Under the pieces are notes generated by a model. The model saw only the letters and a program-made list of their open reading frames with translations. It did no database searches and had not been told where the DNA came from. A stretch of DNA of 64,000 nt, from the NCBI RefSeq assembly GCF_900167975.1, contig NZ_FUZU01000003.1, positions 682,001 through 746,000 on the forward strand, read 5' to 3'. The translations under genes were made by a program, and so were the position numbers. The number at the start of each line of letters is the position of its first letter. Positions within the stretch are counted from its first letter, which is position 1. Source of the DNA: Ohtaekwangia koreensis (lineage in GTDB: Bacteria > Bacteroidota > Bacteroidia > Cytophagales > Cyclobacteriaceae). Positions 1,636 to 21,199 of this stretch are shown one piece after another.

Positions 1636-1649
1636 ATGATGAAAATCAT
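1636..1649. promoter_or_regulatory. Fnr/Crp-type dyad upstream of usp
   Basis: ATGATGAAAATCAT is a perfect inverted repeat with 5-base arms and a 4-base spacer (ATGAT-GAAA-ATCAT), the geometry of Fnr-family sites (consensus TTGAT-N4-ATCAA). Its centre is about 75 bases upstream of the Usp start at 1718. The same dyad type recurs upstream of several island genes. Confidence 0.6.
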
Positions 1650-1717
1650 CCCCGGACAAAACTAATTTCATTCTTTAAACCCTTTCAAGCAAGTAGCTTA
1701 GTTTTAAAATTTTAGTT

Positions 1718-2554
1718 ATGAAAAAGATACTTGTACCAGTTGACTTTTCCCAGCAGTCCAACGAAGCATACACGGTTGCGCTTGACTGGGCACAAAGCAC
1801 AAAAGGAGAAATAGTTCTTGTCCATGTGCTCGTACCTCCTGGCCCTTACGTTGGATTGGCTGGTGAAACAATTGCCTATGATATGACCTATTTTACCCAG
1901 ATGGAAGCAGATATAAAAAAGGCATTGCAAAAAATGAAAGAACGTGCAGGTTCAGTACCGGTGACGACTGACATCGTTTATGGTGACCTGGTATCGGGTA
2001 TATCAAATGTTATCGAAAAAAAAGAAATTGACTTTATTATAATTGGCACTTCGGGTGCCTCCGGTCTTACAGAAACTTTCATTGGCTCCAATACCGAAAA
2101 GGTTGTGAGGTTCTCAACCGTACCGGTGTTGGCAGTGCGAAAATCGATCGCTATAAAATCAATAAAAAATATACTATTACCTTCAACGTTGAATCTTAAC
2201 CAGACAGATTTCATCCAGAAGCTAAAGTCGTTGCAAAAATTGCTTCACGCAACCTTGCACATACTACTGATCAATACACCACTGCATTTCAGACGCGATG
2301 CTGAAGCAAACGAAGCGCTAGGGGACTTTGTCAGACATTATGGGCTTACAAACTACAAGCTTTACTTTAGAAGCTATACACATGAACAAGAGGGCATACT
2401 GAATTTTGCATCAGTGGAAAAGATGGATCTTGTAGCCATGGCAACACACGCCCGTAAAGGACTTGCCCATCTTTTCAACGGCAGCATTACAGAAAATGTA
2501 GTGAATCATACTGACGCTCCCATCTGGACTTATAGACTTAAAGACCACGTCTAA
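1718..2554 (+). CDS. Universal stress protein, tandem UspA domains
   Basis: A 278-residue cytoplasmic protein with two UspA folds (about 1-143 and 148-278). Domain 1 has the nucleotide-binding pattern GTSGASG...GSNTEKVV followed by VPVLAVR, so ATP binding is plausible. Domain 2 keeps GSITENVVNHTDAPIW but has MATHARKG in place of the GxxG loop. Tandem Usps of about 280 residues are common in Bacteroidota and are linked to starvation, hypoxia and envelope stress. The gene is followed after 8 bases by the MgtC-like gene, so they are probably cotranscribed. An Fnr-type dyad lies 75 bases upstream. A second intact copy lies at 13718, and a broken one just upstream on the other strand. Confidence 0.93.
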   Translation: MKKILVPVDFSQQSNEAYTVALDWAQSTKGEIVLVHVLVPPGPYVGLAGETIAYDMTYFTQMEADIKKALQKMKERAGSVPVTTDIVYGDLVSGISNVIEKKEIDFIIIGTSGASGLTETFIGSNTEKVVRFSTVPVLAVRKSIAIKSIKNILLPSTLNLNQTDFIQKLKSLQKLLHATLHILLINTPLHFRRDAEANEALGDFVRHYGLTNYKLYFRSYTHEQEGILNFASVEKMDLVAMATHARKGLAHLFNGSITENVVNHTDAPIWTYRLKDHV

Positions 2555-2562
2555 CATCGCTC

Positions 2563-3849
2563 ATGCCAGATAGCATCGGTGCTTTTCTTACGCCTTATCT
2601 ACTTTCGTTAATTGTATCAACAGGTATAGGATTAATCATTGGCTTGGAGCGTGAGTTCCGGAAGGTAAGCGATAAAGATCATTTTGCAGGAATAAGAACT
2701 TTCCCTTTGGTCTGCATATTAGGTTGTATTGTTACTTATATAGGGCGCGATATTTCGATATGGATTATCGTTGCAGCAGTTATCGCATTTATAGCTTTCA
2801 TTGCCGTTACCTACTATGTACGATCGACAAAAGGCCATCAAGGTATAACCACGGAAATCTCATTAATTATAACCTTCATATTGGGAATGATGACCTCCCA
2901 GGAGCTCATTAAAGAATCTCTGGCCGCCACTGTGATAACGACTACGTTACTTACATTGAAAGGACAGTTTCACTCATTTGTTTTAAAGATCACCGAAGAC
3001 GAACTTCTTGCATTTATCAAATTCATCGTCCTTAGTCTTCTTCTCTACCCTTTTTTGCCAGATCGTTATTATGGTGTAAACGGCATATTTAACCCGCAGG
3101 AGACTGGATTTATTGTGATTGTTGTTTCATCCATCAGCTTTGTGGGCTATCTGCTTATCAAATATACCGGTACAAATAAGGGTATATTACTGACGGCATT
3201 GTTAGGCGGCATTGTTTCAAGTACAGCTGTTGCCTGGACATTTGCTTCGAGAAGCAAAAAGTCTGGCCCATCACAATCTGCGTTATATGCTGCTGGTATA
3301 ACACTTGCGTCGTCTATCATGTATCTGAGGGTTGTTGCTGTGGCAATGATCTTTAACCGTTCATTCGCTGCATTACTAATATTGCCCTGCGCAACCATGT
3401 TTATCCTGGGACTGATTTTCTCTCTGACTTTCATCAAGCAGAACAACACCACGATTGATGCTGCTAAGCCTATTCAACTTGGCAACCCGGTGAATATTCT
3501 GAATGCCTTTGGATTTGGTCTCCTCTACATTGCTATAGCTTACCTCGTATACTACAGTGAAAAACTTCTCGGTAACAAAGGCTTGATTCTTTCGGGTTTC
3601 ATTTCTGGACTCGCAGATGTGGATGCCATTACAATCAATATCGCTAAACTATCACAAGACCATATTGCCCGTCATTCTGCTATGGCTGTTCTGCTAGCAA
3701 CATTCAGCAATACCTTGATGAAAACTCTTATTGCATCACTGCGGGGAACTCCGGAATTAAGGAAGAAAGTAACACTTGCGATGGGTTCCATCATGGCGAC
3801 AGCTATCCTGTTTATTATATTCTTCACGTTATGGCCTGACACTTTGTGA
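2563..3849 (+). CDS. MgtC/SapB family membrane protein with C-terminal DUF4010 domain
   Basis: A 428-residue polytopic membrane protein. The N-terminal 140 residues carry the MgtC signature GLIIGLEREFRK followed by FAGIRTFPLVCILGC and several transmembrane helices. The remainder (about 170-425) matches the DUF4010 type, with helices around GYLLIKYTGTNKGILL and GNKGLILSGFISGLADVDA. Members of this combined family are inner-membrane proteins of uncertain function; MgtC proteins are tied to Mg2+ limitation and control of ATP synthase. It starts 8 bases after the Usp gene. It converges with the PfkB gene; the 75-base gap holds only a weak AT-rich dyad. Confidence 0.88.
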   Translation: MPDSIGAFLTPYLLSLIVSTGIGLIIGLEREFRKVSDKDHFAGIRTFPLVCILGCIVTYIGRDISIWIIVAAVIAFIAFIAVTYYVRSTKGHQGITTEISLIITFILGMMTSQELIKESLAATVITTTLLTLKGQFHSFVLKITEDELLAFIKFIVLSLLLYPFLPDRYYGVNGIFNPQETGFIVIVVSSISFVGYLLIKYTGTNKGILLTALLGGIVSSTAVAWTFASRSKKSGPSQSALYAAGITLASSIMYLRVVAVAMIFNRSFAALLILPCATMFILGLIFSLTFIKQNNTTIDAAKPIQLGNPVNILNAFGFGLLYIAIAYLVYYSEKLLGNKGLILSGFISGLADVDAITINIAKLSQDHIARHSAMAVLLATFSNTLMKTLIASLRGTPELRKKVTLAMGSIMATAILFIIFFTLWPDTL

Positions 3850-3924
3850 CGTGTAATATATAGTTCAGGAAAATTTATATAGCTCCAGGAAAAGCCTATA
3901 TATACCTTAACGATCCGTGCGATC

Positions 3925-5112
3925 TTACTCATGCCGGTGAGCGAATACATGCTGCCGGGACAGTTCATTTTTTTGCAGTAGCTCAGCCATCCATATATCA
4001 AGATATTGTAGGATTCCCTGCAGATCAGCACTGAAGCCATTTTCGACATACGCACCAGATACTGCCATCCCAAGTAACATACATTGTGCAGATGAAAACC
4101 CTAAAAGCATTCCAAGGCAGTAGCCTGCATTGAGGTTGTCTCCTCCGCCCGTTAACACTTTCGGTTTGAGTACCAGTCGGCCATTGAGTTCATTTGCCTC
4201 ATGCTGGTGAAAAAGAATACAGCGATCAACAGGATGCACCAGCAGGGCATCAATGTTCATGGATTTATATAGGGAATCGCCTGCCTGTTTTACCGGAGGT
4301 AGCCCGGGGCTGTCGGTTATATAGTCAATTCCGCGTAAGGCTGCATAGATCTTGAGCGTTTCATTTTCATTTAGGCCCAGCGTTACTTTTCCATAGCAGG
4401 AAAAAGAACTGACCAGGTCAAGAACCTCATCAATTTGCTCGGTAGTTTTCTTTGATGGATCACACAAGTCAAAGAAGAATAAGTAATCCTTTCGCTTCGA
4501 TGGCTTAATAATATCTTCAAGCATACCTTCCCAAATATTACTGGCATGTGGCAGGTTCGCCCAATCCACAAATGCAATCAATGTACTGTCAGAAATTGCT
4601 TTATGAATTGCCTCTATACCTGCAATTTTTATTATGTATTCCCATGTATACTGATCAAAGACTTCGAGCTCCGAAAATATAAGTTTACCATCGCTAAATT
4701 CGATAGCATCACTTTGCCCCGGATTTAAAACGCTGATCGTTTCACTCCGCGGATTCATACCAGAGAACACTTGATGCAGCTGCGGGTATCCCATACTTCC
4801 CAGGCAGTATGTTTGTATTCCCAATCGACCAAGCGTATCCGCCAGAATTGGCGCGTTTCCTCCAAATTTGACGCGCTGTGTATCCATTTGAATCTGACCG
4901 CTCTTTCCACATGCAAGAAGGATTCTATTGGCAAAATCCCGAATCGAGTCGAAATATAGTGTGCGCGTATTCTGCTTTTCCATGACCGCCCGCTTGATCT
5001 TATCGACAAATCCATCAAATCCTACAAACACCTTTTTGCTCGCTGCGGAGTTGTGCTGTGAGCTTCGCAGCAACTCTTGCAATTCCGACAAAGCAGAGAT
5101 CGTGGTATCCAT
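3925..5112 (-). CDS. PfkB-family carbohydrate kinase
   Basis: A 395-residue cytoplasmic ribokinase/PfkB-fold protein, longer than the usual 300-340 because of an N-terminal helix (1-25) and insertions. The FDGFVD strand and KFGGNAPILADTLGRLG correspond to the PfkB signature 1 region. The C-terminal GGGDNLNAGYCLG corresponds to the catalytic GAGD motif; the first G-A is G-G here, while the aspartate is kept. The substrate is not clear; PfkB enzymes phosphorylate fructose-6-phosphate, ribose, adenosine and others. It lies directly downstream of hsp20 on the same strand, but a strong hairpin separates them. PfkB next to hsp20 and usp recalls the mycobacterial Rv2028c-Rv2031c cluster. Confidence 0.85.
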   Translation of the reverse strand: MDTTISALSELQELLRSSQHNSAASKKVFVGFDGFVDKIKRAVMEKQNTRTLYFDSIRDFANRILLACGKSGQIQMDTQRVKFGGNAPILADTLGRLGIQTYCLGSMGYPQLHQVFSGMNPRSETISVLNPGQSDAIEFSDGKLIFSELEVFDQYTWEYIIKIAGIEAIHKAISDSTLIAFVDWANLPHASNIWEGMLEDIIKPSKRKDYLFFFDLCDPSKKTTEQIDEVLDLVSSFSCYGKVTLGLNENETLKIYAALRGIDYITDSPGLPPVKQAGDSLYKSMNIDALLVHPVDRCILFHQHEANELNGRLVLKPKVLTGGGDNLNAGYCLGMLLGFSSAQCMLLGMAVSGAYVENGFSADLQGILQYLDIWMAELLQKNELSRQHVFAHRHE

Positions 5113-5156
5113 ATAGTTATATATATATACTTATTTATCTATCACATCAATCTGGT

Positions 5157-5189
5157 AAACAAAGGGCGGTACAAGTCCACCCTTTGTTT
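5157..5189. terminator. Hairpin between hsp20 and the PfkB gene
   Basis: Perfect 10-base arms AAACAAAGGG / CCCTTTGTTT enclose a 13-base centre that can pair further (GG with CC). A T-run follows on the plus strand. It sits just after the hsp20 stop at 5200 and before the PfkB start at 5112, so it probably ends or attenuates hsp20 transcription. Confidence 0.65.
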
Positions 5190-5199
5190 TTTCTCCTGC

Positions 5200-5655
5200 T
5201 CAAGACACGGCAACCTTTTGTGTCGGTCTCGCCGGAGTTTCTTTCTCTTTAGGAATTGACACCTTCAGAACACCGTTCTCATACTTAGCATCGATGCTTC
5301 CCTCTTTTACATTGTCAGGTAAACTGAAGGATCGTATAAAGGAATTGAATGAATATTCTCTCCGGGAATATTCGCCATTCTTCTCCTTCTTTTCTTCTTC
5401 TTTCTCGGCGCTGATTCTCAGCACATGATTCTCGACTTCGACGTTAAAATCTTTCCGTTCCAGTCCTGGAGCTGCAAGCTCGAGTTTAAATTCTTTGGAC
5501 GTTTCAGTCACGTTTGCCGTTGGTATATTTATACCCAGGCGTGAAGGAAAAAGATCGCTTTCCAAATCTATGAAATCACGATCGAATAGTGGTGTGCCGA
5601 AGAAATCGGAAACCAGTGCGGGAAGACCTCCATTTTTTTTTACTGTTAAGTTCAT
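5200..5655 (-). CDS. Small heat-shock protein Hsp20 (alpha-crystallin family)
   Basis: 151 residues from the preferred ATG at 5655. The alpha-crystallin domain (about 45-140) contains ELAAPGLERKDFNVEVENHVL, an Arg-rich strand around GEYSRREYSFNSFIRSFSLP, and the family's A-x-x-x-N-G-V-L-x-V signature as AKYENGVLKVSIPK. The tail has no IxI motif. It is an ATP-independent holdase chaperone. A longer frame opens at 5697 (14 more residues), but a perfect AAGGAGG six bases before 5655 decides for the shorter start. A TGAC-N4-ATCA dyad lies 58 bases upstream and a -7-like TACTTTTA lies between, consistent with activation by an Fnr-type regulator. Confidence 0.95.
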   Translation of the reverse strand: MNLTVKKNGGLPALVSDFFGTPLFDRDFIDLESDLFPSRLGINIPTANVTETSKEFKLELAAPGLERKDFNVEVENHVLRISAEKEEEKKEKNGEYSRREYSFNSFIRSFSLPDNVKEGSIDAKYENGVLKVSIPKEKETPARPTQKVAVS

Positions 5656-5660
5656 ATTTA

Positions 5661-5667
5661 CCTCCTT
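5661..5667 (-). promoter_or_regulatory. Strong Shine-Dalgarno sequence of hsp20
   Basis: The minus strand reads AAGGAGGTAAATATG. This is a full anti-16S match with ideal spacing and it fixes the hsp20 start at 5655. Most genes in this window, as usual in Bacteroidota, have no such sequence. Confidence 0.8.
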
Positions 5668-5676
5668 GTTTTTTCT

Positions 5677-5684
5677 TAAAAGTA
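5677..5684 (-). promoter_or_regulatory. Candidate -7 element of hsp20
   Basis: The minus strand reads TACTTTTA, one base off the Bacteroidota -7 consensus TAnnTTTG. Its centre is 33 bases downstream of the Fnr-type dyad at 5708-5719, the spacing expected for a class II activator site near -41. Confidence 0.4.
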
Positions 5685-5707
5685 TACCTCTACGCACTAT
5701 TCACCGA

Positions 5708-5719
5708 TGACAGCCATCA
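5708..5719. promoter_or_regulatory. Fnr/Crp-type dyad upstream of hsp20
   Basis: TGACAGCCATCA fits TGAY-N4-RTCA, with one asymmetric base between the half sites. The centre is 58 bases upstream of the hsp20 ATG and 33 bases upstream of the candidate -7 element. On its own it is a weak call; it gains weight from the other sites in the island. Confidence 0.45.
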
Positions 5720-5907
5720 GCACTGTCCAAGATTTTTGTCGTCTTATATCAACATAAAATACAACCGGAAGTCGGAAACAACATTAACCAAGCACAATAT
5801 TAAAACAGATGTATATATTGTTTAAGTACTCAAACAGGCACCTGTATGACAAGGGTATATTTTCCAGTACTCTTATTTGCTATAATCCGGGGTTGGAGCC
5901 AGATTTG

Positions 5908-6270
5908 TTATTCAACACATGTATTAATCAACTGTACAAGTTCATCAACATCAAACGGCTTGCGGATATACCCATAAGCGCCCATGTCCATGGCCAGTTT
6001 TACCTCGCTCTTTTCACAACTGGCAGTAATGTATATAAAGGGGATGGACGCTGTTAGCGGGTTCGCTTTCAATTCCCTGATAACCTGATAACCATCTATA
6101 CCGGGCATCATAATATCACATAATATAACATCAGGTTTTGAATCAACCGCCAGCGTAATTCCATGACGGCCATTGTCCGAACTGAGAACGGTAAACCCGG
6201 TGAGTTCCAGAATTTCCCCAGTGTTTTCCCTGATCTCCAGGTTGTCTTCTATAATTAATACAGTTTTCAT
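5908..6270 (-). CDS. Single-domain response regulator (CheY-like receiver)
   Basis: 120 residues made of one receiver domain and no output domain: acidic pair E8-D9, phosphoacceptor D52 in LCDIMMPG, YITAS with the switch Thr, and the lysine in YIRKPFDVDELV. Its ATG overlaps the stop of the upstream PAS kinase by four bases (ATGA), so it is translationally coupled and is the obvious phosphorylation partner. It probably passes the signal to another protein by binding or phosphotransfer. It resembles the receiver at the start of the window (ILELTGFTVLSSDNG versus ILELAKYNVIHALNG), suggesting a shared origin. Confidence 0.93.
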   Translation of the reverse strand: MKTVLIIEDNLEIRENTGEILELTGFTVLSSDNGRHGITLAVDSKPDVILCDIMMPGIDGYQVIRELKANPLTASIPFIYITASCEKSEVKLAMDMGAYGYIRKPFDVDELVQLINTCVE

Positions 6271-7796
6271 GGGTAGATAGCTTTCGGTATTTTTACTGTG
6301 AAGGTCGTTCCCTCTTCCTGTTTGCTTATGCAGGAAATCTCGCCTCCCATCACTTCAACATATCTTTTCACAATCGTTAACCCGAGACCTGTTCCCTGTA
6401 TATTGCCCGTGTTCTTAGCTCTGAAAAATTTACTATAGAGATATTTCTGTTCCTCTTCCGGAATCCCTATCCCGCGATCTGCTACCGCTATAATAAGGGC
6501 GTCCGGATTGAGAGTCGATGTCACTGTAACAACAGACGCCTCGGGAGAATATTTCATAGAGTTCGACAGCAGGTTCACTAATATATAGCGAAGTTTCTTC
6601 TGATCCACTGTTACATTGGTATCCCCTTCATGCAGAATCAATACCTGTTGATCTTTCCTGCGTGTAGCCTGAACATCCTCTACTACTTCGTTCATAAACT
6701 GCCCTATATCAATTGTATCGTATTCCGTTTCAACCTTACCCTGATCAAGTTTATCAAGAGAAAGAAAATCATTGAGGATATTCGTAAGATTACTAACCGA
6801 TGACTTGATACGGGTGAGGTGCTTTTGAATACGTTCGTCATGTTGTAATGCTACGTATCGTTCAATAAGTGACGTACTCGACAGAACAATACTCAAGGGT
6901 GTTCTGAACTCATGGGATGCCATGGATACAAAACGGGATTTGAGTTCGCTCATTTCCTTCTCACGGTCTAGTGCCCGATAGAGTTCAGCGGTTCTGGTTT
7001 GCACCAATTGTTCAAGTTCTTCCTGCATCATACGCTGGTCGTGTATATCAGAACAAGAGCCTATAAAACCGGTAAATATATTATCAATGTAGGTTGGCTT
7101 TCCTACATCCTGAATCCACCGATACTGCCCATCATGACGGCGCAGTCTATACTCCATTACAAAGGATTGTCTTCTATCAAATGCGTTCGTATAGGTGAGC
7201 ATACATTGTTCGAGGTCTTCAGGAAGAATTCCCGTTGCCCATCCGCTACCAAGCTCTTCTTCAATTTGTCTGCCTGTATAACCAAGCCAGGTATTATTAA
7301 AGTAAGTACAATTTTTATCCAAGCCGGAAACCCAAATCATAACCGGCGAATTTTCTGCCATACTCCTGAACCAGGCTTCGCGTTCGGCGACAAGTTTTTT
7401 GGTTTTAACTTGATCCGTTATATCTGTTACAAATGCAACTGCTAAAGTTTCACCATCTAACTCGTAATGTCCAAGGCTTATTGCAACCGGAAATACCTCT
7501 CCATTTTTTTTACGCCCGTAAAGCTCCATCCCCAATCCCATGGGTCGCGTTTTGGGCTTAGCGAAATACCCGCTGCGATGATGTGCATGGCGAGCCCGAA
7601 GGTCATCCGGTAAAAGAACCTCAATGGGTTGACCTATTAACTCAGCAGGCGAATATGCAAAGAGCCCCTCAGCACACGGGTTTGCAAGCCCAATACTTCC
7701 TTGTTCATTAATAACCAATATACTGACGGTAGCACACTCAAAGAGAACACGGAAACCAGCCTCACTTTCAAGAGAAATGACCTTTTGTTCCACCAC
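6267..7796 (-). CDS. PAS-PAS sensor histidine kinase
   Basis: 509 residues with no membrane helix, so a cytoplasmic sensor. PAS1 (about 14-130) is of the FixL-like type with RARHAHHRSGYF and RPMGLGMELYGRKKNGE. PAS2 (about 140-260) ends with the PAC segment WIQDVGKPTYIDN. A coiled-coil linker leads to HisKA with the phosphoacceptor in SMASHEFRTPLS, then HATPase_c with N box NLLSNSMKYSP, G1 box ADRGIGIPEEE and G2 box GTGLGLTIVKRYVEVMGG. The start is GTG at 7796; an in-frame TAA lies five codons upstream and no ATG is available. Haem or other cofactor binding cannot be judged from sequence alone. It is coupled to the receiver at 5908. Confidence 0.93.
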   Translation of the reverse strand: MVEQKVISLESEAGFRVLFECATVSILVINEQGSIGLANPCAEGLFAYSPAELIGQPIEVLLPDDLRARHAHHRSGYFAKPKTRPMGLGMELYGRKKNGEVFPVAISLGHYELDGETLAVAFVTDITDQVKTKKLVAEREAWFRSMAENSPVMIWVSGLDKNCTYFNNTWLGYTGRQIEEELGSGWATGILPEDLEQCMLTYTNAFDRRQSFVMEYRLRRHDGQYRWIQDVGKPTYIDNIFTGFIGSCSDIHDQRMMQEELEQLVQTRTAELYRALDREKEMSELKSRFVSMASHEFRTPLSIVLSSTSLIERYVALQHDERIQKHLTRIKSSVSNLTNILNDFLSLDKLDQGKVETEYDTIDIGQFMNEVVEDVQATRRKDQQVLILHEGDTNVTVDQKKLRYILVNLLSNSMKYSPEASVVTVTSTLNPDALIIAVADRGIGIPEEEQKYLYSKFFRAKNTGNIQGTGLGLTIVKRYVEVMGGEISCISKQEEGTTFTVKIPKAIYP

Positions 7797-7936: not shown

Positions 7937-9373
7937 TCATTTCAAAGATACGCTATATAGTTTATGAGTCATTCGGTGGTCCACCATATATATATCTTTG
8001 TAAACATGGAACTGGTTATCCCGGAAATCACATGTATAGTAACGGATATAAATAGGTATAGGATCATACAGGTTTATTGTATGGCGTGATTCTTCCTTCA
8101 GATAACGTACAATCTTCGGAGACTTTTTATTCAACTCACCTGTAACCAGATAATGTGAAAGTTCAATTGCTTTTTCGAGGCGAACACAACCGTGACTAAA
8201 AGCTCTCACCTCACTGTTGAACAATTTCTTGGCGTTGGTGTCATGCAAAAAAATAGCGTATGGATTATCAAAAACGAATTTTACAATTCCCAGAGAATTC
8301 TCCGTTCCCTCGCGTTGTCGCAGCAGCACGGGAAAATGGTTTTTGCTAAACCTATACCAGTCAACACTATCGGGATTTAGCAAGGTCCCATCTTTATTAA
8401 GGACATCGATATGGTTTCGCGTTATAAAGGAAATGTCTTTTTGAATTACCGGCAGGTATTCCTCGGCCGCTATTTTGCGCGGTATGTGCCAATAGGGATA
8501 GGTTACCAAGCATTCAATTCTGCTGCTTATTTCGGGTGTGGGAGTCTTGGGAGTACCCACAATAACCTTTGATTCAAATATCACCGAGTCGTCTTCCACC
8601 AAGTAAAGCATAAAGGCCGGAATGTTGATGAATATATACCGGCGGCCTGTCATATGCTCCAGTCTCCACCGCTCGAGATTAACTTCCAGTGTTTGCAATA
8701 CTTTATTCGTTTGCTCCGGTATATCTGCCAAATGCAATAACACAGTTTCATGCTGGTTTCCTGGGAGGGAATCAATCAATAATCGAATTGCCTTTTTTAG
8801 TGAGCGATAACCAAAGTGTGCAGGCTCAAATCTTGAAATTCCGTCAATAACATTCCCATCCACGGAGACTTGCTCAAGAGAGGACAATGACAACGAATCA
8901 GTCCGGAAAGTTGCAACGGCTGTTTGACCGCTACCTATATGCTGTACAATGGAAATATAGGCATCTGTCAAAAGCGACTCCATGCGAGTAAAATCGCTCG
9001 GGGTAAGCAATCTATTCTTTAAATTTTGTATTTCACCGCTGTGATACCGATCAGGATACAATCCATGATACCGTGCATGGTTAATAAAGTAAATAAGAGA
9101 ATCTGCGGCAGGCTGTAACTTGTCATGCGAGCACCAAAAGAGTTCCTCCCTTCGTTTTTCATAAAAACCTCTGATGAGTTGCACCTTGAGTCCGGCATAA
9201 CATGCATCGGCTGTATCCGTTGGCATTGTAGTATGATGTACTTGAACAAAGCTGATTACTTCACTTGCCTCACTTGCAGAGGAAGACTTTTGGCTTGTGG
9301 TTTTACTGCAACCTGATAAAGCCATTCCGGCAAGCGGTATAATGATAGCTATGAATAAAAAATTGACTCTCAT
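7937..9373 (-). CDS. L,D-transpeptidase lipoprotein (YkuD domain, YcbB/LdtD-like)
   Basis: 478 residues. The N-terminus is a lipoprotein signal with lipobox LSGC at about 18-22, so the enzyme is anchored in the envelope. Residues about 60-250 form the helical scaffold region typical of YcbB-type enzymes (FEKRREELFWCSHD, YHGLYPDRYHSGEI). The YkuD catalytic domain (about 250-420) contains VGTPKTPTPEISS, an IFLHDTN segment and the active-site motif SHGCVRLE with the nucleophilic Cys at about 395. It makes 3-3 peptidoglycan cross-links, which strengthen walls under stress. An ATGAC-N4-GTCAT dyad is centred 58 bases upstream. Confidence 0.92.
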   Translation of the reverse strand: MRVNFLFIAIIIPLAGMALSGCSKTTSQKSSSASEASEVISFVQVHHTTMPTDTADACYAGLKVQLIRGFYEKRREELFWCSHDKLQPAADSLIYFINHARYHGLYPDRYHSGEIQNLKNRLLTPSDFTRMESLLTDAYISIVQHIGSGQTAVATFRTDSLSLSSLEQVSVDGNVIDGISRFEPAHFGYRSLKKAIRLLIDSLPGNQHETVLLHLADIPEQTNKVLQTLEVNLERWRLEHMTGRRYIFINIPAFMLYLVEDDSVIFESKVIVGTPKTPTPEISSRIECLVTYPYWHIPRKIAAEEYLPVIQKDISFITRNHIDVLNKDGTLLNPDSVDWYRFSKNHFPVLLRQREGTENSLGIVKFVFDNPYAIFLHDTNAKKLFNSEVRAFSHGCVRLEKAIELSHYLVTGELNKKSPKIVRYLKEESRHTINLYDPIPIYIRYYTCDFRDNQFHVYKDIYMVDHRMTHKLYSVSLK

Positions 9374-9424
9374 GATTTAAAATTGACCCTACGTGAAAGT
9401 TCGTTGAATAAAGTACCTCTAACC

Positions 9425-9438
9425 ATGACCAGGGTCAT
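9425..9438. promoter_or_regulatory. Fnr/Crp-type dyad upstream of the L,D-transpeptidase
   Basis: ATGACCAGGGTCAT is a perfect inverted repeat, ATGAC-CAGG-GTCAT, centred 58 bases upstream of the start at 9373 and between divergent genes. It has the same geometry as the other island sites, with TGAC/GTCA half sites. Confidence 0.55.
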
Positions 9439-9530
9439 ACTCGTCCATGATGTTTATCGCATGGCGAGTAGCCTTCGAGTGTTAACGCATATAGGATCAC
9501 CGCAGCTATGGAGCCTATATAATATTTACC

Positions 9531-9542
9531 TGACTTTAATCA
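9531..9542. promoter_or_regulatory. Fnr/Crp-type dyad upstream of the 9620 gene
   Basis: TGACTTTAATCA fits TGAY-N4-RTCA and lies inside the longer dyad CCTGACTTTAATCAGG (9529-9544). The centre is about 83 bases upstream of the plus-strand ATG at 9620. Confidence 0.4.
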
Positions 9543-9619
9543 GGAATGTAGAGAACTTTTAACATTGTATTACGCAGATATAGCTGGTAGCTTGACTATA
9601 TATTTTAAAGTTCAAAACT

Positions 9620-10750: not shown

Positions 10751-10884
10751 ACTTTGCTATTTAGGTATATACTTCTCATTAATTATACATCACAATACAA
10801 ACTATGGAAAATTATCAAAACCATGCATGCAGGTTTAGTCATCCATAACAATGATAAAGTAACGGCACAAACAAAATACTCGGG

Positions 10885-10898
10885 GTGATGAAAATCAC
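10885..10898. promoter_or_regulatory. Fnr/Crp-type dyad GTGAT-N4-ATCAC
   Basis: GTGATGAAAATCAC is a perfect repeat with the same GAAA spacer as the site upstream of usp at 1636. It is 142 bases upstream of the flavodoxin start and about 300 bases upstream of the MCE operon, so its target is unclear. Confidence 0.5.
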
Positions 10899-10912
10899 GA
10901 TAATGAAAGAAT

Positions 10913-10930
10913 ATTATCACAGGTGATAAT
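10913..10930. promoter_or_regulatory. 18-base dyad ATTATCAC-AG-GTGATAAT
   Basis: Perfect 8-base arms with a 2-base spacer. The half site GTGATAA is in the opposite order (TCAC before GTGA) to the Fnr-type sites, so a different regulator or a nested arrangement is possible. It is 15 bases from the 10885 dyad. Confidence 0.45.
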
Positions 10931-11118: not shown

Positions 11119-11136
11119 GTATGATAATTATCATAC
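11119..11136. promoter_or_regulatory. 18-base perfect palindrome containing an Fnr-type dyad
   Basis: GTATGATAATTATCATAC is its own reverse complement. Its core ATGAT-AATT-ATCAT (11121-11134) has the Fnr geometry and is centred 57 bases upstream of the MlaE start at 11185. It is the best candidate operator for the lipid-transport/Usp/kinase operon. Confidence 0.6.
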
Positions 11137-11143
11137 AACCACA

Positions 11144-11157
11144 TTGACAATCGTCAG
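11144..11157. promoter_or_regulatory. Second Fnr-type dyad before the MCE operon
   Basis: TTGACAATCGTCAG reads TTGAC-AATC-GTCAg, with one mismatch at the outer base. It lies eight bases after the palindrome at 11119, on roughly the same helix face two turns away. Confidence 0.4.
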
Positions 11158-11184
11158 TAGTTCCCAATAGTCCATGAGGCATAT

Positions 11185-11976
11185 TTGACTAATAGAAATA
11201 TAATTAACGTGGCATCGCAATCAAACACCAAATTCCTTACCGAAACCGGAGACACCGCAAGATTTGCTGTCAGGTTTTTCAAGGAACTATTTAAACAACA
11301 CCAGGAAGTTGATGAATTTCTCAGGCAATGTTTTTGGGTTGGGTACAAGTCCTTGCCATTGGTGGTCACCACTGCTTTCATTATGGGGTTGGTGCTGACA
11401 ATTCAATCCAGACCCACATTGGTTGAATTTGGAGCAGAATCCCTGTTGCCGGCTATGGTTGCCGTCTCGCTGGTACGTGAGATCTCACCCGTCATTACAG
11501 CTCTTATCTGCGCAGGCAAAATAGGTTCTGGGATGGGTGCGGAATTAGGTTCTATGCGAGTAACCGAGCAGATCGATGCGATGGATGTATCCGGCACAAA
11601 TCCCTTTCGATATCTTATCGTTACCCGCATACTGGCAACCACGCTCATGCTTCCTATACTATCAAGCTTGTCTAATGCTGTATCGCTATATGGCGGCTAC
11701 CTCGGAGTAAACATCCGAGGTGAGGTTAGTTGGCATCTATACTGGACGCAAGTCTTCAATGCTCTGAGTTTTGGCGATGTACTTCCATCGTTGATCAAAA
11801 CATTTTTCTTTGGATTTGCTATAGGAGTTATCGGATGTTATAAGGGGTATAATTCTAAAAAAGGAACTGAGGGAGTTGGCAGATCGGCGAACTCTGCGGT
11901 CGTTGTCGCCTCGCTACTTGTATTTATCATTGACCTGATTGCCGTTCAGATCACAGATCTTCTCGGCTTAACCTGA
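11185..11976 (+). CDS. MlaE-type ABC transporter permease
   Basis: 263 residues with the MlaE permease fold: an amphipathic N-terminal helix (residues about 18-40), five or six membrane helices, and conserved EFGAESLLPAMVAVSLVREI and CAGKIGSGMGAELGSMRVTEQIDAM. It exchanges phospholipids between membranes with the ATPase and MCE protein encoded next. No ATG is available; the start is TTG at 11185 or GTG at 11209, while the first internal ATG would delete a membrane helix. It begins a tight operon (6-, 2-, 11-, 30- and 65-base gaps) running to the PAS protein at 16767. Confidence 0.92.
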   Translation: MTNRNIINVASQSNTKFLTETGDTARFAVRFFKELFKQHQEVDEFLRQCFWVGYKSLPLVVTTAFIMGLVLTIQSRPTLVEFGAESLLPAMVAVSLVREISPVITALICAGKIGSGMGAELGSMRVTEQIDAMDVSGTNPFRYLIVTRILATTLMLPILSSLSNAVSLYGGYLGVNIRGEVSWHLYWTQVFNALSFGDVLPSLIKTFFFGFAIGVIGCYKGYNSKKGTEGVGRSANSAVVVASLLVFIIDLIAVQITDLLGLT

Positions 11977-12717: not shown

Positions 12718-12719
12718 CC

Positions 12720-13706: not shown

Positions 13707-13717
13707 ACCTGAATGTC

Positions 13718-14545: not shown

Positions 14546-14575
14546 GTAGAAAAAAAACATTTTGAAAACTACTTT

Positions 14576-15679: not shown

Positions 15680-15744
15680 CCAGAAAGAGTAGCATGAAAC
15701 ATATAACCAGAGTATAAGTTTATAAGTATATATCATGATGTCCT

Positions 15745-16767: not shown

Positions 16768-16821
16768 ATGGAATGAAATTAAAGCACGAACCGCTGAAGA
16801 TTGTCCAGGTATATACATAGC

Positions 16822-17397
16822 TCAAAAATAAAATCGGATGCCGTTACTAAAAACAAAACCATTGCTATAACGAGGGCTGTTTTCAAGCTTGTCTGCATAG
16901 GCATCTGCATAATTAATTCCTATACCAAAGTTATAGCAAAGGTTAGTGTTACCGGTTTGGAGTAAAAACACCTCAATTCCAACCAAGGCATTTACTCCTG
17001 TTATTACTTTCTTTTCAGAAACTCCCGATTGAGGAATAATAAGTACGGGCCCTAAATCTATATACAAACGGCTCCGTTCATTGATATGGGAGTAGACAAC
17101 AACACTAGAGCTCAACATTGAAAACACTCCCCATCTATCAAATTGCACCTTGTAAGCTTCCAACCAATGCACACTACTTGTAATCCTCACGCCTACGCGA
17201 TGATGCATGACAGGTAACGTGACTTCCAGACCAATCCAGGAATTATCGGTCAGCTGACCCGCTGAAACACCTACCGAAAAATGTTTTATATCTTCCCTGG
17301 TATATGCATTATCCTGAGTAAACACTGGAGTATACGCCACTACCATAGCCATGGTCATGATGAACATCAACCCGGAAAATCTTAAAGAGTCATGCAT
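16822..17397 (-). CDS. Predicted secreted outer-membrane-type beta protein
   Basis: 191 residues, not recognised. A hydrophobic signal peptide (residues about 9-27, ending PVFTQ) is followed by alternating strands with aromatic residues (FSVGVSAGQL, WIGLEVTLPV, RVGVRITSSVHW) and a final strand SNGIRFYF ending in Phe. This is the pattern of a small outer-membrane beta barrel. Start ATG at 17397. It is single and convergent with the PAS-HisKA gene. An ATGAT-N4-ATCAT dyad is centred 58 bases upstream, and a TAGTTTCG element (-7-like) lies 33 bases from that centre, so it is probably a member of the Fnr-type regulon. Confidence 0.7.
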   Translation of the reverse strand: MHDSLRFSGLMFIMTMAMVVAYTPVFTQDNAYTREDIKHFSVGVSAGQLTDNSWIGLEVTLPVMHHRVGVRITSSVHWLEAYKVQFDRWGVFSMLSSSVVVYSHINERSRLYIDLGPVLIIPQSGVSEKKVITGVNALVGIEVFLLQTGNTNLCYNFGIGINYADAYADKLENSPRYSNGFVFSNGIRFYF

Positions 17398-17448
17398 AGC
17401 AAAAATTGATTGGGAGATCGAAACTATATAGAGCTAACCGCATGTATT

Positions 17449-17462
17449 ATGATGTCGATCAT
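17449..17462. promoter_or_regulatory. Fnr/Crp-type dyad ATGAT-N4-ATCAT
   Basis: ATGATGTCGATCAT is a perfect repeat between divergent genes, centred 58 bases upstream of the outer-membrane protein start at 17397. Confidence 0.6.
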
Positions 17463-17470
17463 CGAAAGAG

Positions 17471-17484
17471 TTGATTATGATCAT
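17471..17484. promoter_or_regulatory. Fnr/Crp-type dyad TTGAT-N4-ATCAT
   Basis: TTGATTATGATCAT matches the Fnr consensus TTGAT-N4-ATCAA at nine of ten defined bases. It follows the 17449 dyad by eight bases and may serve the hibernation factor at 17620 (centre about 142 bases upstream) or act with its neighbour. Confidence 0.55.
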
Positions 17485-17619
17485 GACCGAGGTGCGCATA
17501 TCAAAAAAGACTAAAATCATTGGCGTTAGAGACATTGGTCATTACATAAGATATAGTGAGGATATATCTTTAATACCACGACAGTTCAACGACTAAAGCA
17601 CTTGATAATTGGATACTCC

Positions 17620-17895
17620 ATGAAACTAACAATTCAGACACCGCATTTCGATGTACAAGAAAAACTTCTAAATTTTGCAGAAGAACATATCCGGAAACTT
17701 CATCTCTTAAATGATAGAATTCTGGAAGCACAGGTGTGCATGAAACTTGACAAATCAGACAGAGGAGACAACAAGGTCTGTGAAATTAAGCTCATCGTAC
17801 CCGGCAATGATTTGTTTGCATCTAAGCGATGCAACTCATTTGAGGACGCAATCCTGAAGTCAGTGTCTGCGCTCAGACACCAGCTTGAACGGTGA
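17620..17895 (+). CDS. hpf: Ribosome hibernation factor, short HPF/RaiA type
   Basis: 91 residues of the S30AE family: MKLTIQTPHFDVQEKLLNF, the basic segment around LHLLNDRI, and an EDAILKSVSALRHQLER C-terminal helix. The length fits short HPF/RaiA; there is no C-terminal dimerisation domain as in long HPF. It binds the 30S subunit in stationary phase or energy limitation and blocks or pairs ribosomes. A TTG at 17602 opens the frame six codons earlier, but the ATG at 17620 gives the family N-terminus. Two Fnr-type dyads lie upstream. Confidence 0.92.
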   Translation: MKLTIQTPHFDVQEKLLNFAEEHIRKLHLLNDRILEAQVCMKLDKSDRGDNKVCEIKLIVPGNDLFASKRCNSFEDAILKSVSALRHQLER

Positions 17896-17944
17896 GAAAC
17901 AGCGCACAGCCAGCATACCGAAAACACGCCTAACCCAAATACTT

Positions 17945-18439
17945 ATGGAAACTGATTATACATCTACCCCCTATATTATCACCAACATAATTGCGATCTT
18001 CACCGCTATCATATCCATGATACGGCCGAATATAGGGCGTGTGCTTTTAAGTGGTATATTTATAGGAGCAGCGGCTTTCAATGGTTTTACAGCCTGGAAA
18101 AATCCTGACTTGTACTTACTGTTTGGCGAGTTAACCACCAGCGGCCTTTACCGCTCTATAATACTAGGTCCGTTCAGCAGGCACATCGAGCTCTATATAT
18201 CTATACTTGTATGCTATCAGGTCCTTGTCGGGGCATTCCTGCTCTATAACGGCAAGCTAATGAAGGCAGCCATGCTTGCAGGTACTATTTTCCTGTTGGG
18301 CATTGCCCCACTGGGGATAGGCTCTGCATTTCCTGCCCCGCTCATCCTGGCAACATCATTAATAATACTTATTCGCAGGAAAATTGAATATAGTATATAT
18401 GAAGGCATGGGGCGAAAAATAAAGCACTTCCCTCACTAA
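17945..18439 (+). CDS. Small polytopic membrane protein, function unknown
   Basis: 164 residues from the ATG at 17945; a TTG-started frame from 17885 would overlap hpf and add a non-hydrophobic leader, so it was not used. Four or five hydrophobic segments: YIITNIIAIFTAIISMI, VLLSGIFIGAAAFNGF, LYISILVCYQVLVGAFLLY, AMLAGTIFLLGIAPLG and LILATSLIILI. The loop TAWKNPDLYLLFGE resembles DoxX-like or unnamed Bacteroidota membrane proteins, but I do not assign it. It follows hpf by 49 bases and may be cotranscribed. Confidence 0.7.
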   Translation: METDYTSTPYIITNIIAIFTAIISMIRPNIGRVLLSGIFIGAAAFNGFTAWKNPDLYLLFGELTTSGLYRSIILGPFSRHIELYISILVCYQVLVGAFLLYNGKLMKAAMLAGTIFLLGIAPLGIGSAFPAPLILATSLIILIRRKIEYSIYEGMGRKIKHFPH

Positions 18440-18455
18440 CACCCGGTTACTTCGT

Positions 18456-18665
18456 CTAAGGGATATTCCTCACTTTCTTATTCTTGCGTATATAGGAATA
18501 TTTCCGATCGGTAAGCGTAATGAGTATTGCAAACCAAGGAGACTTTTCTGGTCCAGAATCTTGGATCTTTTTAAAACCATGATTGCCTGGGCCTTGTTGA
18601 CATGTTTTGTCGTCCCTGCGCGTTCCCTTATCCATCGAATCAAAATACAATGGCACCGCTTCCAT
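18456..18665 (-). CDS. Possible small basic protein downstream of the Crp/Fnr gene
   Basis: 69 codons from an ATG at 18665, four bases after the stop of the Crp/Fnr gene. The product is strongly basic (TDRKYSYIRKNKKVRN) without a recognised domain. Position favours translation in an operon with the regulator; the low-complexity charged composition and lack of known relatives argue for caution. Confidence 0.3.
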   Translation of the reverse strand: MEAVPLYFDSMDKGTRRDDKTCQQGPGNHGFKKIQDSGPEKSPWFAILITLTDRKYSYIRKNKKVRNIP

Positions 18666-18669
18666 CGAA

Positions 18670-19407
18670 TTATGGAATGTTGCTTCGTGATTTTTTTTGA
18701 TTGAGTCCCAACAAGTTTGCTTCTTTTATAATTCGCTTCCGATCGACAATACGAATTGTTTTATCCGTCTTGTCAATGATTCCCTCCCGTTTAAACTCTT
18801 GTAGTTGTCGTACCAGCGTTTCTTTAGCGGTACCCACCAAGTTAGCAAGATCTGTTCGGGACAACTGTATATCACTTGCTATATCTGACTGTTTTGACGA
18901 ATTAAATTTCATGTCCAACAGCAAGAGGTTAAAAGCAAGTCGCTCTCTTACCGATTTCGTTCTGAGATTTGTTATACTGTTAATAAACAAGCTAAACTCA
19001 TGACCCAGCGCCTTTAGTAATGCATTCGACAACGTAGCGGAGCTGCGCAGGACTTTCACAAAATCATCCTTGGGAATGAAGGTGATCTGCGAATCAATAA
19101 TGGTAGCGGCTGAGTCGGAGTATAACTCCTCTCCCAGCAGGGCGTGATATCCGATTAACTCCCCCTCACCACATAAATAGAAGATTTGCTCCCCTCCTTT
19201 GGCAGTTGTTTTAAACTTCTTTACAACACCAGACCTTATGTAATATATACCTGTGGGAATACCTCCATCGCGAAAAAGCATTTCGCCTTTTTTATACACA
19301 TGTGTAACGCCAGGCCCTAAGAGCGCTTCTTGCTCCTGAACGGTCAGTTGTTCAAAAAGCTGATCGGTTTTAAGGCGGGAGTTTCCTGATAAAATTTTCG
19401 TGATCAT
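18670..19407 (-). CDS. Crp/Fnr-family transcriptional regulator
   Basis: 245 residues from the ATG at 19407; a TTG at 19428 would add seven. A cyclic-nucleotide-type beta roll (about 20-130: YKKGEMLFRDGGIPTGIYYI, GEGELIGYHALLGEE) is followed by the long dimer helix and a winged HTH with RTDLANLVGTAKETLVRQL. The recognition helix keeps the Glu and Arg (KETLVR) that contact TGA half sites in Crp/Fnr proteins. There is only one Cys (FYLCGEGE), so no FNR-type iron-sulfur cluster; the effector is unknown. A TTGAT-N4-ATCAT dyad lies upstream, suggesting autoregulation, and it is the best candidate to bind the island's dyads. Confidence 0.92.
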   Translation of the reverse strand: MITKILSGNSRLKTDQLFEQLTVQEQEALLGPGVTHVYKKGEMLFRDGGIPTGIYYIRSGVVKKFKTTAKGGEQIFYLCGEGELIGYHALLGEELYSDSAATIIDSQITFIPKDDFVKVLRSSATLSNALLKALGHEFSLFINSITNLRTKSVRERLAFNLLLLDMKFNSSKQSDIASDIQLSRTDLANLVGTAKETLVRQLQEFKREGIIDKTDKTIRIVDRKRIIKEANLLGLNQKKSRSNIP

Positions 19408-19440
19408 TACCGTAATTCTTTCGCCCAATTTAATTTTTAT

Positions 19441-19474
19441 AAGTCAATGTCTCCATTGACTTATATCAATGGAG
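19441..19474 (-). promoter_or_regulatory. Overlapping alternative hairpins in the leader of the Crp/Fnr gene
   Basis: Two inverted repeats share bases and cannot form together: AAGTCAATG (19441-19449) pairs with CATTGACTT (19454-19462), and CTCCATTGA (19451-19459) pairs with TCAATGGAG (19466-19474). Both have perfect 9-base arms, with 4- and 6-base loops. They lie 34-67 bases upstream of the ATG at 19407. They could be a two-state RNA switch or overlapping operators. Confidence 0.55.
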
Positions 19475-19477
19475 GCG

Positions 19478-19491
19478 TTGATCTTTATCAT
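19478..19491. promoter_or_regulatory. Fnr/Crp-type dyad upstream of the Crp/Fnr gene
   Basis: TTGATCTTTATCAT reads TTGAT-CTTT-ATCAT, nine of ten defined bases of the Fnr consensus. The centre is 77 bases upstream of the regulator's ATG and next to the alternative hairpins, fitting autoregulation. Confidence 0.55.
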
Positions 19492-19654
19492 TATACGATA
19501 ATCAAATCGTATCTATCTTGTTGCAATATATATCAACATTATTTTTTTGAATGGAAGCTTAATGCCTGAAAATCGCAAACAAGACCAAATAGGCTAAAAC
19601 AAAGCAATTATTAATGTATCCATAACATTGAATCGGCACTGCAAAAAACATATT

Positions 19655-19685
19655 ATGGTGTATTGTTGTTTTCTCCATACACCAT
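19655..19685 (+). promoter_or_regulatory. Hairpin just upstream of the 19699 gene
   Basis: ATGGTGTAT and ATACACCAT form perfect 9-base arms around a 13-base loop, ending 13 bases before the ATG at 19699. If transcribed with that gene it would lie in the ribosome-binding region; as DNA it could be an operator. Confidence 0.4.
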
Positions 19686-19698
19686 ATAAGTAACTCTC

Positions 19699-19953
19699 AT
19701 GTTACATTTAAAACAGACACTCCTCCACCAGATTAAATCGGCTACCAATGAAAGAGAAATTGAGATTATCATCTGCCATACTATATACCATTTGAGAGCA
19801 AAGGGAATACCTGCTGACATTATTTTCCGATTTATAATCGGTATGAATAAAAACCTCGCAAGGGTTTTAAAAGAGGTGGATTCCAACAGAGAAGAAAAAA
19901 ACATAACCGTAGCGATTATGGTATTGAGAAAAATCCAGAAACCTCAAGACTGA
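19699..19953 (+). CDS. Small hypothetical protein upstream of the sigma factor
   Basis: 84 residues, unrecognised. Helical and charged with a hydrophobic central part (IPADIIFRFIIGMNKNLARVL), no signal peptide and no membrane-length segment. It lies 60 bases upstream of the RpoD-like gene on the same strand and has a hairpin directly before its start. A role with the sigma factor is possible only by position. Start ATG is the only good one in frame. Confidence 0.5.
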   Translation: MLHLKQTLLHQIKSATNEREIEIIICHTIYHLRAKGIPADIIFRFIIGMNKNLARVLKEVDSNREEKNITVAIMVLRKIQKPQD

Positions 19954-20013
19954 TAGATCCCTCTATCTGTAGAGCATTAAGTATACAGTGTCTATAAAAT
20001 CCGTAAACCCGTA

Positions 20014-20877
20014 ATGAGACAACTCAAAATTATTAAACAAATTACCAACCGTGAAAGTCAATCGTTGGACAAGTATTTACAGGAGATCGGAAAAATCGGC
20101 CTCATCACATCCGATGAAGAGGTCAACCTGGCAAAACGTATTCGTGAAGGCGACCAGGCAGCTCTTGAAAAAATGGTAAATGCCAATCTACGGTTTGTTG
20201 TATCGGTTGCCAAACAATATCAAAACAATGGTCTTAGTCTAAATGATTTAATTAATGAAGGCAATGTAGGACTTGTAAAAGCCGCGATGCGTTTTGATGA
20301 AACACGCGGGTTTAAATTTATTTCCTATGGAGTATGGTGGATACGCCAGTCCATTATGCAAGCCCTTGCCGAACAGTCAAGGGTTGTTCGCCTTCCGTTA
20401 AACAGAATAGGAAATCTGAACAAACTCAATCGAACCTTCTCCTCACTCGAGCAAAAATTTCAGCGTGAACCATCGGCAGATGAACTTGCTGAAGTTATGG
20501 AAATAGCAATTGAAGAAGTATTGGAGACTGCGCGTATGGGAAGTCGTCAAATATCACTCGATGCACCCTTTGTACAGGGAGAGGAAAATGGATTGCTGGA
20601 TACACTGTTTGATGAATCGCATGACACTCCGGATTCAAAGCTTATTGGAAATTCGCTGTGTATGGATATACAGCGAAGTCTGTCCATTCTTACCGAACGA
20701 GAAGCAAATGTGATATCACTCTACTATGGACTCAATGGACAATCTGCCATGACGCTAGATGAAATCGGATTTAAATATAGCCTCACGCGTGAACGCGTAC
20801 GACAAATAAAAGAAAAGGGAATTAAGCGACTGCAGCAAACATCCAAAAGTAAATCATTAAGGCACTACCTGGGTTAA
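20014..20877 (+). CDS. RpoD/SigA-type sigma-70 factor, likely a paralogue of the housekeeping factor
   Basis: 287 residues, the length of Bacteroidota primary sigma factors. Region 1.2 [16 protein letters not shown], region 2 [19 protein letters not shown] and [16 protein letters not shown], region 3 [16 protein letters not shown], and region 4 [17 protein letters not shown] with the -35 helix [14 protein letters not shown]. Compared with what I know of the usual Bacteroidota RpoD, it differs at normally invariant spots (SYGVWW where SYAVWW is usual, short acidic linker, [12 protein letters not shown]). Its stress-island setting also suggests an alternative copy rather than the primary factor, but this needs the genome to settle. 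Confidence 0.9.
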
Positions 20878-21199
20878 CTTCATATATATATATTACTATT
20901 ATCTGAAGGACATTCTCCAAACAAGAGGTGCTGTTTTATGTACTAAATGAAGTATGCCGGACCTGAAAGGAAATTATTCTTCAGAACCCCTCTAAACAAC
21001 ACTACAAAATAATGTGTATGGGCAAATAGCAGCAAGCTCGTCAAGAAAACATCGGTACATTCATATTATATACCTTTGCAAGGTGCATCGTTACTTTATG
21101 TAAAGATGATCAAAATCAGGTAACAGGAACGGTTTTTATCAGTGCGAAATATATAGCAAAGTAAATATTTTGCAACGCACCTGTTTCAAATGTAAGAGT
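20878..21199. other. Intergenic region between the sigma factor and the helical-repeat gene
   Basis: No coding frame is seen. It is AT-rich with a run of TA repeats at 20883-20893. It holds an Fnr-type dyad (21106-21119) and a -7-like TATTTTG at about 21164, whose TTG could be mistaken for a start codon at 21170. Confidence 0.5.
21106..21119. promoter_or_regulatory. Fnr/Crp-type dyad upstream of the helical-repeat gene
   Basis: ATGATCAAAATCAG reads ATGAT-CAAA-ATCAg, with one outer mismatch. The centre is 87 bases upstream of the ATG at 21200. Confidence 0.45.

Follow-up and report, generated by a model that had tools for sequence, protein, structure and literature searches.

The regulators that offer the closest comparison with the locus described here are E. 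coli FNR, mycobacterial DosR and the rhizobial Fix proteins. FNR, which carries four cysteines for a 4Fe-4S cluster, recognizes TGA-N6-TCA half-sites and activates from a site centred at -41.5, a position classical for class II activation by both this protein and CRP in E. coli. DosR belongs to the NarL type, FixL has a haem-binding PAS domain with a proximal histidine, and FixJ is a receiver with a LuxR/GerE-type output. To our knowledge, and this is an impression, the anaerobic-switch regulation of Bacteroidota is poorly mapped. Two groups of described systems are relevant: the rhizobial hFixL-FxkR-FixK or FixLJ-FixK pathway (PMC7888657), and DosR of mycobacteria together with the lxa locus of Burkholderia cenocepacia, where clustered Usp, Hsp20, BON, phospholipid and redox genes are induced at low oxygen (PMC6127331). 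Here we analyse a 64-kb stretch of Ohtaekwangia koreensis (contig C4, positions 682001-746000 of the 7.24 Mb genome G000; hereafter the window), which contains an island of Crp/Fnr-type dyads. Judged from sequence, the island probably belongs to an autoregulated oxygen-limitation regulon, activated through tandem Crp-type operators that are read by proteins combining a receiver with a Crp-type output (REC-Crp), an arrangement similar to FixLJ-FixK with J and K fused.

The first-pass annotation of the window listed eleven dyads of the pattern TGAYNNNNRTCA between positions 1636 and 21119, all between genes, and took them to define an Fnr/Crp-type regulon. All eleven are present, although nine of the coordinates were one base too low (the true starts are 1637, 5708, 9426, 9531, 10886, 11122, 11145, 17450, 17472, 19479 and 21107), and they are intergenic. 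The interval contains, however, 16 exact matches: four omitted ones (3425, 9042, 14059, 17358) are within open reading frames (ORFs), and a fifth, at 19457, is intergenic and pairs with 19479. The expected frequency of one match per 16 kb was correct for equal base frequencies, but the genome has 714 matches, i.e. one per 10 kb (336 for the pattern read backwards). The window contains 24 matches versus a mean of 6.39 in shuffled sequences, and none of 100 shuffles reached 24. There are 17 matches between positions 1 and 21500: intergenic DNA (3.19 kb) contains 13 (4.1 per kb), ORFs (18.3 kb) contain 4. In 17 control stretches of 20 kb (340 kb) from the same genome, with ORFs called mechanically, intergenic DNA has 4 in 34.5 kb (0.12 per kb), ORFs have 30 in 305.5 kb. 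The intergenic density of the island is thus about 35 times that of the controls, and the enrichment is absent from both coding and unrelated intergenic DNA, a comparison that could have spoken against the regulon. The 20 kb directly left of the window (L010, C4:662001-682000) contain 10 dyads, 9 of them intergenic, whereas the remaining part of the window (21500-64000) has 7, only one of them intergenic; on these counts the island begins some 14 kb to the left of the window and reaches about 21 kb into it, with the edges set after the sites had been seen. The dyads are genuine and not due to chance.

The regulon claimed from single dyads was of the right kind but incomplete, as the unit is larger, one type of regulator had been missed and the island extends further to the left. 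Among dyad pairs not more than 60 bp apart in the fetched stretches, 11 of 17 were spaced at exactly 22 bp and two at 23 bp. A scan of the 59 genomes of the family set, in which every gap was allowed, gave 38 pairs at 22 bp, 10 at 23 bp and 63 distributed over the other 27 spacings (n=111 unique places among the matches listed). Exact 22-bp tandems number 101, spread over 31 of the 59 genomes (reversed control: 1), and in a class-wide sample 80 of 149 genomes had them (reversed control: 0). G015 and G022, with 14 and 13 exact tandem pairs, would be good models for studying a full regulon.

We fetched 86 unique pairs (82 at 22 bp, 4 at 23 bp), of which 71 had an ORF start within 250 bp. Downstream of these 71, the motif TAnnTTTG was found exactly 23 nt past the proximal dyad in 17 cases, once each at 22 and 24 nt, and at no other offset up to 79; with up to one mismatch the count at offset 23 was 39, and at most 3 at any other offset. 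The combination dyad-N23-TAnnTTTG occurs 195 times in the 59 genomes (9 times reversed), a count that includes single dyads, thus Crp-type sites throughout the phylum probably share the class II spacing. The Bacteroidota -7 box has been placed at -12 to -5 (PMC9723704), which, with the offset of 23, puts the dyad centres at -41.5 and -63.5. The functional unit, as predicted from sequence, is a composite promoter consisting of two dyads 22 bp apart and a Bacteroidota -7 box 23 nt downstream, and a single dyad as the full unit is ruled out by the 22-bp tandems of the spacing scans and by the cross-genome model described below. The proximal dyad thereby takes the place of the activator site in a class II Crp/Fnr-dependent promoter, with respect to transcription starts that are predicted rather than mapped. 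The predicted leader is 17 nt for hsp20, the L,D-transpeptidase (LDT) gene, the outer-membrane-type gene (OMP) and mlaE; adding 41.5 places the proximal dyad 58 bases ahead of the start codon, the spacing noticed in the first-pass annotation. The distance of 57-58 bases reported there applies to hsp20, LDT and OMP (58), but the 57 given for mlaE was measured from the distal dyad to the annotated TTG. The geometry of mlaE agrees with the other three only if translation starts at GTG 11209, which we propose because the predicted +1 is at 11192.

A weight matrix for the tandem and the -7 box was trained on 63 promoters, all from other genomes but in part from the same genus (threshold 12 bits; a palindromic pair matched on both strands counts twice). 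It gave 19 matches, corresponding to 13 distinct sites, in the 35.2-kb island. The remaining 42.5 kb of the window, the 17 controls (340 kb) and the stretches L009 and L011 gave no match. The model exposed degenerate partners at the seemingly single sites 1224, 5708, 9426 and 10886, and weakly at 1637 and 9531. Ten of the eleven originally listed dyads fall in such promoters, with 11122/11145 representing the 23-bp form, which is outside the model.

The sites are conserved ahead of orthologous genes in related genomes, at nearly constant distances from the starts. Ahead of hsp20 the exact dyad is at 58-61 nt in G000, G001, G002 and G004 (58/59/61/60) and as a one-base variant in G003, with both sites kept. 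The tandem ahead of mlaE is also present in G002, G003, G004 and G021 (57 and 34 / 55 and 33 / 57 and 35 / 48 and 25 / 66 and 44, from the annotated start); G001 has an assembly gap at this position. For uspA an exact dyad occurs at similar distance in G001, G002, G003, G004 and G006 (75/77/76/82/82/82), the dyads and the -7 box of OMP are conserved in G001 and G004 (58/61/46), and the distances are 45/45/45 for the gene of a 164-aa protein and 34/36/41 for crp. Alignment of the promoters of hsp20 and of OMP shows the dyads, for OMP also the -7 box, standing out against diverged flanks. The exact dyad was not found at hsp20 of G003, OMP of G002, crp of G003 and G018, the flavodoxin gene and gene 9620 of G001 and G004, or uspA of G021, G022 and G030. 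Seven genes (mgtC, RR, mlaD, HK2, the PAS protein gene 15745, 17885 and rpoD) have no dyad in the window and none in the orthologs examined.

The annotation had proposed the Crp/Fnr protein encoded at 18670 as the regulator, pointing to the Glu and Arg needed to read TGA half-sites and to a dyad before its own gene. The latter was confirmed (exact dyads 19457 and 19479). The two residues do not distinguish the protein, since according to our reading both are present in 11 of the 23 cNMP-domain proteins of the genome, and they are ruled out as proof. Within these 23 proteins 18670 forms a close group of three with two REC-Crp proteins, one encoded at the left edge of the window on the minus strand and overlooked previously, the other at C6:565571-566629. 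Both 18670 and the REC-Crp proteins have the cNMP_binding domain and the Crp-type winged HTH that define the CRP/FNR superfamily. Stretches L034-L051 of the same genome encode numerous Crp-like proteins of short length, about 190 aa, which end at the recognition helix and lack the wing.

In the family set, tandem pairs were found in 11 of 14 genomes with both REC-Crp and an 18670-type protein, 11 of 16 with REC-Crp only, 8 of 20 with the 18670 type only and 1 of 9 with neither. Across 147 class genomes a tandem pair was present in 56 of 73 with REC-Crp and in 22 of 74 without (p 1e-8, uncorrected for descent). Among the matches listed, 28 of 75 tandem pairs were within 40 kb of a REC-Crp or 18670-type gene, where about 1.9 would be expected. 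We also examined 74 further REC-Crp loci from named genomes (6 of 80 were left out, as their contigs had the same lengths as stretches already used), none of which matched the training loci at 90% identity or higher (E 1e-50 or better). Of these, 63 had model matches (240 matches, 144 distinct sites; reversed sequence 1), and the plain dyad occurred 338 times versus 32 reversed. From the co-occurrence and the richness of REC-Crp loci in promoters we link the operator to the REC-Crp proteins and regard 18670 as their sister; as sole regulator 18670 is ruled out by the co-occurrence of the tandem with REC-Crp, and it is not the best-linked candidate either. The predicted promoter of the REC-Crp gene in the window is about 240 nt ahead of its ATG at 926.

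The second REC-Crp gene starts 18 nt after a gene for a FixL-like PAS kinase and is located beside ccoNO, ccoP, ccoG, a P-type ATPase gene and hemN, the last carrying a tandem promoter. Just upstream of this cluster (L160, C6:556001-576000) we noticed genes for a GAF-PAS protein and a lone Usp. In 41 REC-Crp loci (the G048 stretch was left out, no full-length ORF being called) 35 had a kinase gene not more than 250 nt away in the same orientation. The FixL haem histidine is present in 21 of these kinases and both the histidine and the arginine in 16, and 12 of the 41 stretches contained ccoN, ccoP or ccoG. In the kinase encoded at 6267-7796 of the window the histidine is aligned, there is Met at the Arg position, and the full FixL model scores 120.2 bits versus a cut-off of 850.

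The 67 proteins encoded after tandem pairs include Usp (12), radical SAM proteins (4), MlaE (3), Hsp20 (2), L,D-transpeptidase (2), phosphoenolpyruvate (PEP) synthase, ccoS (in G033) and a hydrogenase (the Ni-Fe hydrogenase small subunit, in G014). Three of the radical SAM proteins were tested and all were hemN, above the model cut-off, in O. koreensis, G004 and G015. At the independent 74 loci, 108 proteins included CBS (19), Usp (18), PAS kinases (11, of which 7 match the FixL model at 1e-40), Hsp20 (5), REC-Crp (3), metal P-type ATPases (3) and ccoN (1). This composition resembles that of the low-oxygen survival regulons DosR and lxa (PMC6127331).

We propose that the dyads serve as operators through which a regulon is positively controlled. 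Two Crp-type dimers, centred at -63.5 and -41.5, would bind on one side of the helix, their spacing of 22 bp corresponding to two turns, and the proximal dimer would stand in for the -33 element, aiding RNA polymerase at the TAnnTTTG box. The readers would be the REC-Crp fusions of the window and of C6, with the 18670-type Crp a sister acting on the same site. REC-Crp is probably activated through phosphorylation by neighbouring kinases; several of these have FixL-like, presumably haem-containing PAS domains, which suggests that the genes are switched on under oxygen limitation. The induced set would comprise Usp, Hsp20, MlaE, L,D-transpeptidase, hibernation-promoting factor (HPF), PEP synthase and other island genes, as well as the regulators and the hemN that adjoins the oxidase. 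A more general proposal is about as likely as not: an oxygen-limitation system spanning the phylum Bacteroidota, with a FixJ-type receiver and a FixK-type Crp reader in one protein. The activator would be the direct target of a FixL-like haem kinase, and two dimers, paired on 22-bp tandems (-41.5/-63.5) as a result of phosphorylation, would induce hemN and the cbb3 oxidase set along with genes for dormancy (Usp, CBS, Hsp20, HPF, PEP synthase).

Features of the island in window coordinates
Feature	Position	Strand	Basis
REC-Crp regulator, 361 aa; receiver, cNMP_binding, HTH_Crp_2	1..953 (C4:681868-682953; 3' end outside window)	-	Pfam PF00072, PF00027, PF13545
Predicted composite promoter of REC-Crp gene	1171..1235	-	dyad 1224-1235, degenerate dyad 1202-1213 22 bp off, TACTTTAG 23 nt downstream; 29.4 bits
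Predicted uspA promoter	1637..1701	+	dyad 1637-1648, degenerate proximal partner, TAGCTTAG; 15.5 bits, weak
Universal stress protein	1718..2554	+	Pfam Usp
Hsp20	5200..5655	-	Pfam HSP20; start probably ATG 5655, not GTG 5697; predicted +1 at 5672
Predicted hsp20 promoter	5677..5741	-	proximal dyad 5708-5719, degenerate distal site, TACTTTTA; 25.9 bits
Single-domain response regulator adjoining PAS-PAS kinase	5908..6270	-	Pfam Response_reg
PAS-PAS histidine kinase; first PAS FixL/DosP-like with haem histidine	6267..7796	-	phmmer: FixL 6.9e-17 (PAS), E. coli haem PAS 1e-10, DosP 1.7e-9
L,D-transpeptidase (LDT)	7937..9373	-	Pfam YkuD
Predicted LDT promoter	9395..9459	-	proximal dyad 9426-9437, degenerate distal site; 25.3 bits; predicted +1 at about 9390
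Weak predicted promoter, gene 9620	9531..9595	+	12.7 bits, under 5% quantile of training set
Predicted promoter, flavodoxin-like gene	10855..10919	-	proximal dyad 10886-10897; 19.4 bits; not conserved in G001 and G004
Predicted mlaE promoter	11122..11187	+	exact dyads 11122 and 11145 at 23-bp spacing, CATATTTG 23 nt past proximal
MlaE permease	11209..11976	+	Pfam MlaE; re-proposed start GTG 11209
Predicted promoter of outer-membrane-type gene 16822-17397 (OMP)	17419..17483	-	exact dyads 17450 and 17472, TAGTTTCG; 35.1 bits; predicted +1 at about 17414
Predicted hpf promoter	17508..17572	+	both dyads degenerate; 21.0 bits
Hibernation-promoting factor	17602..17895	+	Pfam Ribosomal_S30AE
18670-type Crp regulator, no receiver	18670..19407	-	Pfam; start probably ATG 19407; predicted +1 at 19421
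Divergent predicted promoters, crp (-) and gene 19699 (+)	19426..19521	.	common exact dyads 19457 and 19479; 28.9 and 32.2 bits

Other explanations must be considered. The pattern is degenerate and its 714 genomic copies might invite the view that chance or base composition yields the dyads, but this is hardly conceivable in the light of the shuffles, the control stretches, the reversed-pattern counts and the cross-genome model. Crp-type proteins are capable of repression as well as activation, and some pairs are far from a start or within ORFs; that the dyads repress is nevertheless quite improbable, as their fixed position of -41.5 relative to the -7 box is that of a classical class II activator. 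A more serious alternative is that the 18670-type Crp is the main reader of the island and REC-Crp governs another site. The 18670 gene is part of the island, flanked by tandem sites and preceded by exact pairs, one of the genomes that have tandem pairs and the 18670 type without REC-Crp has 13 of them, and among the matches listed 11 of 75 pairs are within 40 kb of an 18670-type gene, where about 0.7 would be expected. We consider this possible but less likely in view of the genomes that have pairs and REC-Crp but no 18670-type gene, the abundance of promoters at REC-Crp loci in the 74 further records, and G002, where the mlaE tandem promoter is near REC-Crp and the 18670 ortholog is on another contig. 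The signal, too, may be different: general energy or redox stress or starvation, with the oxygen-type targets forming only one branch, would fit the general stress proteins among the targets, the 14 of 35 adjacent kinases without the haem histidine, and the kinase following the window REC-Crp, which gives no FixL match. The recurrence of hemN, ccoS, cco neighbourhoods and FixL-like PAS kinases argues against it, and we consider it possible but the less likely signal.

It must be noted that several observations do not favour an oxygen-limitation regulon read by REC-Crp through tandem operators. Besides the missing FixL match just mentioned, the REC-Crp gene of the window has no directly adjoining gene for a FixL-like kinase, the nearest being 5.3 kb off. 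No pair was found in 28 of the 59 family-set genomes and in 17 of the 73 class genomes with REC-Crp, and the pairs in 22 of 74 class genomes without detected REC-Crp indicate that other Crp proteins use the tandem. Sixteen of the 86 fetched pairs are mostly within ORFs of at least 100 aa. In the island, sites 1637 and 9531 are weak, 10886 is not conserved, and 21107 is not supported as a regulon site, having no model match of 8 bits or more and no ortholog of its gene in those stretches of the relatives that were searched. Moreover, counts taken from related genomes are not independent of each other.

It is interesting to compare the system with its described counterparts. The likeness to FixLJ-FixK consists in FixL-like PAS kinases, a receiver step, a Crp/Fnr-type activator, and hemN and the cbb3 genes (fixNOP, fixG, fixI) as neighbours or targets; unlike there, receiver and Crp output are in one protein without a separate FixJ step, 22-bp tandem operators are combined with a Bacteroidota -7 box, and Usp, CBS and Hsp20 dominate the targets. 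With DosR and lxa the island shares a similar clustered gene composition, but the phylum is different and the regulators found are Crp-type, thus membership in a DosR regulon, with its NarL/LuxR-type regulator, was rejected. The half-sites and the -41.5 centre resemble E. coli FNR class II promoters, whereas the second tandem site at -63.5, the -7 box TAnnTTTG and the absence of the fixed outer T of TTGAT set them apart.

The Crp-type proteins encoded here could not be equated with FNR, CRP, FixK or FixJ. 18670 lacks the Fe-S cysteine set of FNR, having one Cys in the whole protein (NCBIfam Fnr 73.2 bits versus a cut-off of 228), and it is not CRP proper (44.1 bits versus a curated cut-off of 266). 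FixK was rejected for both 18670 (47.6 bits) and the window REC-Crp (72.2 bits; cut-off 300, Caulobacter-type model), and FixJ was rejected for REC-Crp, the output being cNMP plus HTH_Crp_2. In the titles and abstracts of the open-licence PMC papers listed by our searches we found no description of a receiver-Crp fusion or of the tandem operator, and a search of open-licence PMC literature for tandem FNR sites found nothing relevant. If our reading is correct, the operator, the promoter geometry and a likely master regulator of low-oxygen survival can be named for a large and environmentally important phylum, which would open this control to tests on individual genes, and the receiver-Crp fusion would shorten the FixL-FixJ-FixK cascade. 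Given the specificity of the composite promoter, regulons can be predicted from sequence alone.

Three minor observations concern neighbouring genes. The ORF L010:13493-13987, left of the window, was considered as GreA and dropped, having no Pfam or NCBIfam support. The ORF at 22415-26122 (1235 aa) encodes a CusA-like RND pump, seemingly with an extra C-terminal stretch past the usual end. The crp gene is adjoined by a gene for an RpoD-like sigma factor (287 aa, 20014-20877), an 80% ortholog of which is present in the stretch around crp of G002.

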